A stretch of DNA of 64,000 nt from a bacterium. Its GTDB lineage: Bacteria; Orphanbacterota; Orphanbacteria; Orphanbacterales; Orphanbacteraceae. The position numbers and the translations under genes are program-made. How positions within the stretch are numbered: the stretch's first letter is position 1; each line of letters begins with the position of its first letter. This document shows positions 21,754-25,657 of the stretch, piece by piece. Below the pieces are notes generated by a model. That model was not told where the DNA came from, searched no databases, and worked only from the letters and a program-made list of their open reading frames with translations. The DNA lies in the NCBI GenBank assembly GCA_025782575.1, contig JALGYY010000035.1, positions 466,670-530,669 of the forward strand, in the 5' to 3' direction.

Positions 21754-24000
21754 ATGAGTCCTTCGAAAAATCTTCGTCGCCGATTTATGGGATCTCTTTT
21801 CGTGGGAATGCTGCTTTGCTCAGCTCCCGCCCTCGCCTCCACGAACTCGGGTCCCATTAAGATCACGCCGGACGGGATGGAGATCTGGAATGTGAATCCG
21901 GATCACAATACCGTTTCCGTCACGGGGACGCAGGGAGTGAACGAGAATACACTGATCACCGAGATCAACGTACTCCGCGATCCCTGGACGCTGGATATCC
22001 ACCCTTCGAACGGCCAGGTCTGGGTGACCAGCAAGAGGGACGACGCCATAGTTGTCATAGATGGCCCGAGCAGAGCGGTCATCGATACGATCACCGGAGT
22101 CGGTTTCGGTACGTTCGGCATATGCTTCAGCCCGGACGGGTTGCTCGCCGCGGTGACAGCCTCCGGAAGTGACGAGGTATTCCTCGTCGATGTAGCGACC
22201 AGAAACGTAACAGACACATTCAGCGTCGATCGCCGGCCCCATGGCATCGCCTGGTACACGGATAACACCCGGTTTTATGTCTCCCACCTGCTCTTTGAAG
22301 AGACAACTTCCTCGGCCCCGATGACGAAATTTTCCAGCTCAGGGGGTTGGTCGGAGGAGACTGTTATCCGAATCGATCAGGATGCCAATATCTTTGATCA
22401 TGGCGGCTATCCAAGCGGGATGATGAGCATCATCATTCAGCCGGCACCTGCCGATACTGTCCTCGTCATACCATGCACTTACATCAACACTCTCGACGGC
22501 GGGCTTGTCGGCGGGAGCATAGAATTCGATGAGATTACGCAGTCCGGTATCCGGCCCGTCGATCTTATTAACGATCAATCGGGCTTCCCCGAGGCGCAGG
22601 CCACGATCGTTCTGACCGCCGACCACACACCTGTCAGTGGAACGACGGCGATCGATTTCAAATCTGGTAAAATGTACATCGCCAATCTTTCGAGTGGCGA
22701 CATCACCATCATGAGCGGCAATGTTTACGCCGCTACCGAAGACAGTGTCATGCGCTGCGGTGAGGGGCCGCTCGGTGTAGTGGCGCACCCCACCCTGGAT
22801 CGCGTCTATATTTTCAACTGGCTCTCCAGAGAAATCTCAGTGATCAACTCCCTGGTAGACACTATGGTCGCTATGGTGCCCAATACCACTTTTGAACCCC
22901 TTTCGACAAACCTTTTGAATGGCAAGCAGATGTTCTTCGGGTCTCGGGACAGCCTCTCAACTCAGAACCGGCACTCCTGCCATAGCTGTCATGTGTTTGG
23001 TACAAGCGATTCGAGAGCCTGGGATTTCACCACACTCGGTTCCCACAAGCGCTCCACTCCCGACATACGGCACCTGAACGTCACAGGCCCCCAGAACTGG
23101 ACCGCTTCGATGGATGAGAATCAGGACCATGAGTTCGGCATCATGGATCTCCAGTTCGGAAACGGTCTGATTGTCGGTGCGCCCAATCCCAAACTGGGAC
23201 CGACGAATGCCGGCCTGAGTCAGGATCTCGACGATCTGGCCCTCTTCATGAGCAGCTTACTCCACCGGCCCGATACGCCGTATCAAGCCGCCGGCGGTGG
23301 ATTAACTGCGAACGCCCAGCTAGGCAAGGCGATCTTCGAAGACCCCACTGTGGGCTGCGTCAATTGCCATGCTCCGCCGTTCTTTACTGACAGCAATCTG
23401 AGCAACAATCCGTACATCCTGCATGACGTCGGTACGGCGGACACGGTATCTGCCATCTGGGATACCACCGGAATGGCCGGATACGATACGCCCACTCTGA
23501 TCGGGGTTTGGGACAGCAGCCCCTATATGCATAACGGCCAGTTCCCCATGATCCGGGACATTTTCGAGTTCGGTAACACCACCGATCTTCACGGTGTCAC
23601 GTCAGGTCTTTCGACAACCGATCTAGATAATCTGCAGGAATACGTCCTCTCCATCGGAGCTCCCCTGGGGGCACCGACCGACGTGATCAACCCGACGACG
23701 ACGCCGATGGCAACCAGCGACGTGAAGTTGGCCCACGCAGGTGCGAACCCGTTCGCGGCGGAAACGAGCCTTCGATTCTTCATCGACGAGGGTCCGGCGA
23801 GAGTTCAGATTGAGCTTTTCAATCTAGCCGGCCGGCGTGTTCGTACATTGCTGAACCACACCATGACCCGAGGGAACCACACGATAGGTTGGGACTCACG
23901 GGATGAGCAGGGCCGGGCAGTGGCCGACGGAATTTACTTCGCCCGTCTGGTCGTGAACGGCGAGAAGCGGTCGACCGCCAAGATGACCGTACTCCGGTAG
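21754..24000 (+). CDS. Secreted beta-propeller / dihaem peroxidase-like protein with FlgD-type C-terminal domain
   Basis: 748 residues; the ATG at 21754 follows GGAGG. A signal peptide (hydrophobic 11-22, cleavage after ALA) leads into YVTN-type propeller repeats, about residues 35-390 (LDIHPSNGQVWVTSKRDDAIVVID and similar). Two c-type haem motifs follow, CHSCH near residue 407 and CVNCH near 534, in a cytochrome c peroxidase/MauG-like domain. The end (about residue 665 on) is a FlgD-like Ig domain (LFNLAGRRVRTLL, GNHTIGWDSRDEQGR, GIYFARLVVNGE), probably a secretion or anchoring module. It may bind or reduce peroxide or act in extracellular redox chemistry; the reaction is not known. A terminator follows directly. 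Confidence 0.85.
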   Translation: MSPSKNLRRRFMGSLFVGMLLCSAPALASTNSGPIKITPDGMEIWNVNPDHNTVSVTGTQGVNENTLITEINVLRDPWTLDIHPSNGQVWVTSKRDDAIVVIDGPSRAVIDTITGVGFGTFGICFSPDGLLAAVTASGSDEVFLVDVATRNVTDTFSVDRRPHGIAWYTDNTRFYVSHLLFEETTSSAPMTKFSSSGGWSEETVIRIDQDANIFDHGGYPSGMMSIIIQPAPADTVLVIPCTYINTLDGGLVGGSIEFDEITQSGIRPVDLINDQSGFPEAQATIVLTADHTPVSGTTAIDFKSGKMYIANLSSGDITIMSGNVYAATEDSVMRCGEGPLGVVAHPTLDRVYIFNWLSREISVINSLVDTMVAMVPNTTFEPLSTNLLNGKQMFFGSRDSLSTQNRHSCHSCHVFGTSDSRAWDFTTLGSHKRSTPDIRHLNVTGPQNWTASMDENQDHEFGIMDLQFGNGLIVGAPNPKLGPTNAGLSQDLDDLALFMSSLLHRPDTPYQAAGGGLTANAQLGKAIFEDPTVGCVNCHAPPFFTDSNLSNNPYILHDVGTADTVSAIWDTTGMAGYDTPTLIGVWDSSPYMHNGQFPMIRDIFEFGNTTDLHGVTSGLSTTDLDNLQEYVLSIGAPLGAPTDVINPTTTPMATSDVKLAHAGANPFAAETSLRFFIDEGPARVQIELFNLAGRRVRTLLNHTMTRGNHTIGWDSRDEQGRAVADGIYFARLVVNGEKRSTAKMTVLR

Positions 24001-24024: not shown

Positions 24025-24060
24025 GCGGGGAGTTCCGATCAGGACTCCTCGCTTTTTTTG
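24025..24060 (+). terminator. Intrinsic terminator after the propeller-peroxidase gene
   Basis: GCGGGGAGT at 24025-24033 pairs with ACTCCTCGC at 24044-24052 with one G-T pair. A run of seven T follows at 24053-24059. Confidence 0.88.
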
Positions 24061-24087
24061 TGCAAATCGTTTTCGAAGGGACCGACC

Positions 24088-24316
24088 GCCGTCCGTCTGA
24101 AGGGCTCGCAACCGGAGCCGGCAGGAGAATGAGCGAGACGAGGCCGGCGGCCCCGTAGAAACGGAGCATTGAAAATGGGCAGGGTTAATCAGACCCTGCC
24201 CATTTTCGTGCGAAGAATCTACGGGCCGGCCGAGCGAGTGAGGCGAGGGGCGACGATCAGGAGCCCCGGAGCCGGCTCCTGCAGGCCCCGGTTGCGAGTC
24301 CTTCAGTCAGACGGCA
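24088..24316. repeat. Large inverted-repeat element between convergent genes
   Basis: Arms 24088-24115 and 24288-24315 (shared core CTCGCAACCGG) match over 25 of 28 positions as an inverted repeat. A perfect 15-bp inverted repeat sits in the middle (24171-24185 with 24193-24207), and shorter pairings lie in between (CGTAGA at 24155 against TCTACG at 24218). The whole 230-base stretch could fold as one long arm. It has no coding potential. It could be a small non-autonomous mobile element, a structured RNA, or only stacked terminators. Confidence 0.6.
24171..24213. terminator. Bidirectional terminator hairpin
   Basis: GAAAATGGGCAGGGT and its exact complement at 24193-24207 flank a 7-base loop. 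The A-run and T-run ends give a U-tail in both directions, fitting a site between the convergent gene at 21754 and ftsZ. Confidence 0.75.
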
Positions 24317-24352
24317 GCGACGAATGACATCGTTCCGCAGGCGACGCCCGAA

Positions 24353-24386
24353 CAAGAAACCCCGCCGGAATCCGCATCCGGCGGGG
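24353..24386 (-). terminator. Intrinsic terminator of the dcw operon after ftsZ
   Basis: CCCCGCCGGA (24360-24369) pairs perfectly with TCCGGCGGGG (24377-24386) around a 7-base loop. On the minus strand it is followed by TTTCTTGTT. It lies 90 bases after the ftsZ stop. The remaining bases 24387-24475 show only GGTC-rich short repeats and no gene. Confidence 0.8.
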
Positions 24387-24475: not shown

Positions 24476-25657
24476 TCAGTCGGCATGTGCACGAAGGAAG
24501 GTCGGCCTGTCCAGGTCGTCCCTGCTCCGCGCGTCGGCCGGAGCCGGCCGCTCGTTCACGCTCGGGTTCTGGCGCCAGCGTGGGAAGAATCCCTCGCGGC
24601 GACGAAACGCCGGACGCTTCAAATCATCCAGTGCCAGTTCATCTGACACTTCGTGGACACGTTTCTCGACAGGAATCAGTTTCTTTTTCTGCGGTCCCCC
24701 GCGAGTCCCGACACCGGTAGCGACGACCGTCACCCGGATCGAACCTTCCAGCTCATCGGAAACCGTAGCTCCGAAAATGATATGAGCTTCCTCGCCGGCA
24801 GTCTCGCATACCAGGCTCGCCGCCTCGCTCACCTCGCGCAATGAGAGATCCTTGCCACCACTGAAGCTGATCAGGACGCCCCGCGCACCCGCCATCGTGA
24901 CATCTTCCAGAAGGGGACTGGAGATGGCCTGATTGGTCGCCTCGATCGCCCTGTTCTCCCCGCTCGCCTCACCCGTACCCATGATCGCGTCTCCCATTCC
25001 GGCCATGACGGTCCGGACATCGGCGAAGTCGAGATTGATCAGTGCCGGCACTGTAATCAGTTCAGAGATTCCGCGAGTCGCTCGCAGGAGCACTTCGTCG
25101 GCCAAGGTGAACGCCGAAAGGAGCGACACATCATCGCCCACAATTGATAGCAGGCGTTGGTTCGGGATGACGATCAGCGTGTCGACCATATCCCGCAACT
25201 CTTCCAGCCCCTCGTCGCTATGGCGCATTCGCTGACGTCCTTCGAACTCGAAGGGCCGCGTTACGATCCCCACAGTTAGAGCGCCTAGTTCGCGGGCGCA
25301 CTCCGCCACGACCGGCGCCGCACCCGTCCCGGTACCTCCACCCATTCCGGCGGTTACGAATACCATATTTGAGCCCTCGAGCGACTCCAGAATCAGGTCG
25401 CGACTCTCCAGGACCGCCTCACGGCCGATGTCCGGAATCCCGCCGGACCCGAGCCCCTGAGTCGACCGCTCGCCGATCTGAATCCTGTGCGGCGCCTGGG
25501 ACTGCTCCAGTGCCTGGCTATCGGTATTGATCGTGATGAACTCGACACCGGTCAGTCCCCCTTCGATCATGCGATTCACGGCGTTGCCGCCTGCCCCCCC
25601 CACACCGATCACCTTGATCTTTGCGGAATTTCTCTGTTCGGTTACGAACTCAAACAC
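24476..25657 (-). CDS. ftsZ: Cell division protein FtsZ
   Basis: Tubulin-like GTPase that forms the Z ring. 393 residues with a GTG start 6 bases after AGGAGG. The GTP-binding tubulin signature GGGTGTG is at 106-112 and the T7 catalytic loop is NLDFADV near 210. After the GTPase core (about residue 320) comes a variable linker, then the C-terminal conserved peptide (DDLDRPTFLRAHAD) that docks FtsA and other partners. It is the last gene of the dcw operon. Confidence 0.97.
   Translation of the reverse strand: MFEFVTEQRNSAKIKVIGVGGAGGNAVNRMIEGGLTGVEFITINTDSQALEQSQAPHRIQIGERSTQGLGSGGIPDIGREAVLESRDLILESLEGSNMVFVTAGMGGGTGTGAAPVVAECARELGALTVGIVTRPFEFEGRQRMRHSDEGLEELRDMVDTLIVIPNQRLLSIVGDDVSLLSAFTLADEVLLRATRGISELITVPALINLDFADVRTVMAGMGDAIMGTGEASGENRAIEATNQAISSPLLEDVTMAGARGVLISFSGGKDLSLREVSEAASLVCETAGEEAHIIFGATVSDELEGSIRVTVVATGVGTRGGPQKKKLIPVEKRVHEVSDELALDDLKRPAFRRREGFFPRWRQNPSVNERPAPADARSRDDLDRPTFLRAHAD

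Follow-up and report, generated by a model that had tools for sequence, protein, structure and literature searches.

A family of dispersed bacterial repeats with outer arms that match within a site but not from site to site

Introduction

Direct duplications, or fixed ends that the element brings along, are the usual marks of mobile DNA. MITEs of the DDE type have terminal inverted repeats that are common to copies, together with direct target duplications. ERIC, YPAL and similar repeats, 100–170 bp in length, are intergenic and fold as long hairpins, the arms of which are common to copies. PMC3733652 gives as the hallmark of REP sequences a short hairpin, one end of which bears an unpaired GTAG or CGTC tag. 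Inverted repeats may also be reshaped by template switching, which is described as homogenizing and lengthening inverted repeats and inverting the spacer (PMC8604942), and as creating hairpins (PMC8794818). Here we describe an element with arms that are specific to the site at which each copy resides.

Structure and gene setting of the element

The element occupies positions 24088–24315 of the window, the 64,000-nucleotide stretch of DNA analyzed here. It was originally predicted to be a 230-base inverted-repeat unit, much longer than a terminator. The element is real, yet it consists of three nested layers, namely (from inside to outside) a swappable center, a conserved core and outer arms that pair at each site, and the repeat itself spans only about 150–160 bp. 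Its features and those of the adjacent intergenic sequence are as follows:

24025–24052 plus T7, + strand: separate intrinsic terminator behind the left gene (terminator scan)
24088–24127, no strand assigned: outer arm on the left, site-specific in sequence, forming an inverted repeat with 24276–24315 (88% complementary)
24122–24159, + strand: conserved left part of the repeat (GGCAGGAGAATGAGCGAGACGAGGCCGG...), with counterparts in both full-length and left-end copies at other places in the genome
24145–24159, no strand assigned: inner stem around the center, 5′ side (inverted-repeat scan)
24171–24207, no strand assigned: swappable central hairpin with a perfect 15-bp stem and a 7-nt loop (inverted-repeat scan and copy comparison)
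24218–24232, no strand assigned: inner stem around the center, 3′ side (inverted-repeat scan)
24218–24281, + strand: conserved right part of the repeat (GGGCCGGCCGAGCGAGTGAGGCGAGGGGCGAC...GGAGCC; copy comparison)
24247–24267, + strand: third stem GGGGC...GCCCC (GGGAC/GTCCC or GGAAC/GTTCC in other copies)
24276–24315, no strand assigned: right outer arm, complement of the left arm (inverted-repeat scan)
24360–24386, − strand: separate 10-bp hairpin, a possible ftsZ terminator (inverted-repeat scan; the terminator scan made no call there)

The outer arms, initially described as 28 bases matching at 25 positions, are present but longer, at 40 nt each with 88% complementarity. The perfect 15-bp central hairpin was found as predicted (24171–24185/24193–24207, without mismatch), and the further internal pairings noted at the outset include the inner stem 24145–24159/24218–24232, which is 87% paired. 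The core of the window type starts with GAATTAGCGAGACGAGGCCGG and ends with GGGCCGGCCGAGCGAG...GCGAGGGGCGAC...GGAGCCCCGGAGC, and close variants of these ends occur in other copies. A BLAST search of the element's own genome showed no convincing second copy of the left arm (the best match covers 25 bases at 92%, E 0.098). RNA folding of 24075–24330 yielded −156.3 kcal/mol (z −12.05) for the + strand and −151 kcal/mol (z −10.93) for the − strand; on either strand, 0 of 200 shuffled sequences folded as well.

The left neighbor, whose 763-aa product shows cytochrome c-like, beta-propeller and FlgD-Ig matches, ends at 24000 (+), while the right neighbor, ftsZ, ends at 24476 (−), so that the element lies between convergent genes, as had been stated. 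Since ftsZ is followed further along by ftsA and a Mur ligase, the placement after the dcw operon is also right. The terminators that were thought to flank the element on both sides and to serve both genes are a different matter: the left one (24025–24052) is real, whereas the right one (24360–24386) is only a candidate. Taking a short GC stem, a loop of 3–8 and a U-tract as the marks of an intrinsic terminator, the scan called only 24025–24052, outside the element, and nothing within it. The T-tract at the central hairpin amounts to four T only.

A dispersed repeat family

The window element is one copy of a dispersed repeat family. In a BLAST search of its own genome, a 281-bp stretch had 52 matches at E <= 10, five of which, besides the window itself, extend over 146–160 bp at 87–93% identity; a diverged copy used as the query had 86 matches, many of them overlapping. 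With a covariance model (R1) built from 15 sequences, there were 36 matches at E <= 0.1 and 31 at E <= 0.01; the 36 include weak and partial ones, and the last of them (51 bases, E 0.09) is perhaps due to chance. In the original prediction, a lack of both other copies and covariation would have reduced the element to a cluster of terminators brought together by chance between the convergent genes. A terminator to the left and a hairpin to the right would fit such a cluster, but the 36 model matches and a fold z-score of −12 leave it a negligible probability, and the other copies refute it.

Among six other genomes of the same phylum, R1 had two matches in one (G001, apparently the genome of JAJRWB010000060.1, a Candidatus Eisenbacteria MAG), whereas five yielded no match at E <= 0.01, and a search of 290 genomes with stricter filters added no further genome with the element. 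BLAST with the window core against 41 genomes hit only its own genome, so that the covariance model was needed to find more. A scan with a 16-base pattern reached one Eisenbacteria contig (L105), the pattern being too short and its loci giving short matches only. A literature search turned up no account of this element, which is no proof that none exists.

We also asked where the copies reside. Using a simple hexamer gene caller, 34 of the 36 places could be classified (one inside a called ORF and one without a left neighbor were left out): 12 are between convergent genes, 12 and 5 are in the two same-strand classes and 5 are between divergent genes. Convergent gaps account for 18% of the total length of intergenic gaps >= 60 bp. 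Distances, determined for 30 copies in long loci, show that copies are close to gene 3′ ends. A 3′ end is at most 100 nt away in 21 of the 30, compared with 24% of random intergenic points, and for 22 of the 30 the closest gene end is a 3′ end (46% of random points). For 5′ ends at most 100 nt away, the corresponding values are 8 of 30 and 29%.

Arms matched within sites and unlike from site to site

Both ends are available for 24 copies, of which one (L181) could not be resolved and 23 were scored. In each of the 23, the flanks pair with each other over about 25–55 aligned bases, up to within 0–3 nt of the core. Scores for the left and right arms of the same copy range from 17 to 43 (median 28.5), compared with a median of 9.5, a 95th percentile of 17.9 and a maximum of 26 when the left arm of one copy is set against the right arm of another. 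The outer part of the arm scores best with its own partner in 19 of the 23 copies, the exceptions being L187, L189, L190 and L198. In the six window-type copies, cores are 81–93% identical (median 88%) and own arm partners score 19–37, whereas arms compared between copies score a median of 6.5 and a maximum of 14.5, against 6.0 for random 42-mers from the genome. The two arms of a copy match each other, then, but not those of copies at other sites. Many copies of the other, non-window subtype have a weak consensus in the inner arm, CCTCCTCCCGGGAG.

Flanking direct repeats, suggested at the outset as something to look for, are absent outside the arms in the 23 copies, as judged by eye over 14 nt per side. 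An apparent direct target duplication was considered and rejected: the self-palindromic CTCCCGGGAG inner arm mimics one, but the second arm of a window-type copy is the first in reverse complement. With arms unlike between copies and no direct repeats outside them, the family does not have the makeup of a DDE-type MITE.

A swappable center, in many copies a RAYT-associated hairpin

The center swaps between copies. All six window-type copies (L001–L006) have a AAAATGGGCAGGGT-type central hairpin. Another central hairpin, GTTCTGGGGACACAATACTTAATTCC with its complement, adjoins an element end in 22 of 53 loci scanned; 15 more loci have this hairpin but no element end by the same pattern. L261 has a short center of its own, and L190, L200, L182 and L268 have none. 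The GTTCTGGGGACACAATACTTAATTCC hairpin also borders a RAYT-like gene in L230 (221 aa, Y1_Tnp domain); the hairpin nested in these copies is therefore a RAYT hairpin, and this layer represents an insertion of REP type at the core tip. Within L230 (G000:C5:52257-52586) the RAYT-like gene is at 1204–1869, with GGGGACACAATAC hairpin repeats on both sides. The GGGGACACAATAC hairpin is also found solo at other places, in some cases with additional, partial GTTCTGGGGA units stacked on it. The nesting can also be reversed: in L006 (1340–1800), a window-type copy with its own 40-nt arms sits between two RAYT-hairpin halves, with about 50 unpaired bases on each side.

The core itself presents a different picture. 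Around four Y1_Tnp genes, core ends had only matches of chance length (10–12 bases), and none of these genes is flanked by the core; of the layers of the repeat, it is the central hairpin of other copies that flanks a RAYT gene, the one in L230. The window element has no unpaired GTAG or CGTC tag beside a short hairpin: GTAG occurs once, at 24155, inside the inner stem (L002 and L005 have CGAAG in its place), and CGTC only in the site-specific arm. We know of no enzyme for the core, the transposase family searched here being Y1_Tnp.

Related core families in the phylum

Two further core families, built on the same plan, are present in relatives. Counting overlapping matches, the second family has at least 23 matches in G002 and at least 13 in G005 (two genomes of one genus), and the third has at least 15 in G003, at least 17 in G004 and at least 40 in G006. 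Since R1 had no match to the cores of either group (the best, with E 1.3, was away from the element), we treated them as separate families. Self-complementary arms (score 16 or more) are present in 20 of 21 loci examined for the second family; L394 holds a tandem partial copy with no arms (score 8.5). For the third family, arms are self-complementary in 19 of 19 loci examined, are mostly 22–25 nt long and in some cases are perfect (L422, 25/25). In G003 they are entirely different from one site to the next; in G004 and G006 this is so only in part, and a consensus, TAGCCTGG...GCACGCGTTTTC, shows through. At four G003 loci (L416, L422, L425 and L431), arms of about 24 nt start at or next to the apparent stop codon of a neighboring gene, as judged by eye. 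G002 has, in addition, a further short repeat with a CTGGCCAAATGGCCA-type center nested in long arms (L349:573-656, L345:30-130, L350:10129-10222 and L375), with outer parts that are similar in some copies.

Orthologous sites in pairs of genomes offer a view of how copies change. Six such sites read in G002 and G005 are all occupied in both, with arms that are recognizable and mostly unchanged; together they contain seven columns of paired change, some of them outside the arms. At one of the six (L392/L397), the core is inverted while the flanks are collinear. G004 and G006 are 88–95% alike over well-matching flanks, and flank-plus-arm pieces of 13 copies were compared between them by alignment coordinates. 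L420 and L424 are occupied in both genomes and, judging by length, L423, L429, L432 and L433 probably are as well. Three sites have no room for the core in the other genome: that of L435 in G004 (gap of 20 nt, right arm aligned), that of L426 in G004 (31 nt, neither arm aligned) and that of L430 in G006 (53 nt, neither arm aligned). These three sites suggest that the core and arms may come or go together; they are known by coordinates, so that an alignment may stop before an arm, and the 20-nt gap of L435 could hold most of the second arm. For L421, the gap is 100 nt where 218 would be expected, L417 is split over contigs, and L418 and L427 had no ortholog in the other genome. The left flank of L433 (2685–2800) is a distinct repeat, about 116 bp long, that has at least ten further matches in G004 and a single one in G006.

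Origin of the arms

How, then, might arms that pair within a site and differ between sites arise? If the element were a structured RNA gene or a 3′-UTR element, acting as a two-way terminator or as a shield of mRNA 3′ ends, its outer stem would be under selection and maintained by compensatory changes. The very stable fold, the conserved letters between stems and the location of copies near gene 3′ ends are all in line with this idea, and covariation, proposed initially as a test for an RNA fold, can indeed be observed: 13 of 27 predicted pairs have changed on both sides with pairing kept. However, 11 of the 13 are in the site-specific outer arms (the other two are in the third stem) and the sequences are mostly paralogs, which makes this weak evidence for an RNA. 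Moreover, cores up to 93% identical are combined with arms that match between copies at about the random level; this is unlike slow compensatory change, and we rejected slow RNA covariation as the source of the arms. Copies also gain hairpin insertions and internal deletions, and the window copy adjoins a separate terminator. The element matched no Rfam family at the gathering score (the best was MIR8001, with 27 bits where 90 are needed), and among eight related loci only tRNAs beside one copy reached it. On balance, we regard a structured RNA as improbable.

The main rival of the fold-back explanation developed below is insertion at the center of palindromes that already existed, such as two-way terminators between convergent genes or RAYT hairpins, in which case the arms would be the two halves of the target. 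The excess of copies between convergent genes (12 of 34, against 18% of gap length) fits this, and so does L006 with its position between RAYT-hairpin halves, though its immediate arms are other sequence. REP dimers inside palindromes are also described from other bacteria, among them T. roseum with hundreds of free target palindromes (PMC3733652). On the other hand, the model needs a supply of long palindromes and the genome hardly shows one, which counts against it. In 1.65 Mb of the genome, partly consisting of stretches chosen around known copies, 41 inverted repeats scored 15 or more; 37 of these bear the tag of the core, the RAYT hairpin or both, that of L312:12875 being doubtful, which leaves four untagged (five with the doubtful one), a single one of them loopless. 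Within an initial 464 kb, no further hairpin whose loop is shorter than 60 had a score of more than 14. The loopless palindrome (L319:8875-8928), with arms of 27, two mismatches and no core in a convergent spacer of 74 bp, is what the model predicts and may be an unoccupied target, or it may be the scar of a lost copy. The two core-less orthologous sites with neither arm aligned also speak against insertion into palindromes, and overall we consider it somewhat unlikely.

Our preferred explanation, held tentatively and at a little less than an even chance, is that the element is a non-autonomous REP-like interspersed repeat of an Eisenbacteria-type lineage, the arms of which we infer to have been made on settling, by fold-back (template-switch) synthesis copying the flank. 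The hairpin of a settling copy would stall replication or end joining, and the stalled 3′ end would fold back on the purine/pyrimidine ends of the core, the end of the core pairing with its start, and copy about 25–50 nt of flank, placing this flank on both sides in inverted orientation. Later template switches would keep the arms matched and could flip the core. Copies would persist where they are harmless, downstream of genes, and there may act as two-way 3′-end hairpins; such a 3′-end role is possible. In favor of this explanation, we count the dispersed copies, the swapped centers with their RAYT link, the closeness to gene 3′ ends, the high scores of own arm partners beside near-random scores between copies, the rarity of long inverted repeats other than the core and the RAYT hairpin, pairing that extends to within 0–3 nt of the core, core-less sites at which neither arm (L426, L430) or the right arm only (L435) is aligned, and the inverted core of L392/L397, which is in line with described template-switch products. 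Counted against it are the core-less palindrome of L319 (unless it is a product of loss) and L006, which resembles entry into an existing palindrome. Fold-back synthesis also predicts one ancestral arm per empty site, and L426 and L430 show none. The weak CCTCCTCCCGGGAG consensus, the four of 23 outer left arms that do not score best with their own partner, and the mostly unchanged arms at the six G002/G005 sites weigh in the same direction.

A broader view, which at present we find unlikely, is that small mobile repeats of this kind form a class found throughout the phylum, with three or more cores among which no relationship can be detected. Each insertion would duplicate 20–50 nt of host flank in inverted orientation (a fold-back inverted target-site duplication), so that each copy would build its own long palindrome and could flip inside it. 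Repeats that combine conserved cores with site-specific inverted flanks would show how long bacterial palindromes arise, and genome comparison could be used to test whether template switching helps to create hairpins and two-way terminators.

Comparison with known systems

REP/BIME sequences moved by RAYT (REPINs) are similar to the present family in being intergenic palindromic repeats, located here near gene 3′ ends, and the hairpin at the center of many copies also borders a RAYT-like gene in the same genome. In contrast to REPINs, the repeat is about 150–160 bp long with several stems, no Y1_Tnp gene flanked by the core was found, and arms vary by site. ERIC/YPAL-like repeats also form long intergenic hairpins, but with arms that copies share, whereas here the arms are site-specific. 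Template-switch products at quasipalindromes, as described in PMC8604942 and PMC8794818, have in common with our copies the homogenized arms, lengthened arms and inverted spacer. They differ in that the arms described are up to 16 bp, the inverted spacers described are of a few bases and no dispersed repeat is involved.

The REP dimers located in palindromes in A. variabilis (GTAG-15), H. neapolitanus (CGTC-1) and T. roseum (GTAG-23) share with our family a repeat nested in a palindrome. According to PMC3733652, no repeat-free palindromes were found in A. variabilis and H. neapolitanus, and nearly the same holds here; in T. roseum, unlike here, free target palindromes are common. The same article describes the palindromes of REP dimers as fitting a consensus, whereas here the arms are site-specific and the core is long and structured. 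Repeats nested in palindromes are thus already known, and what sets the present family apart is the combination of site-specific arms with a long structured core.
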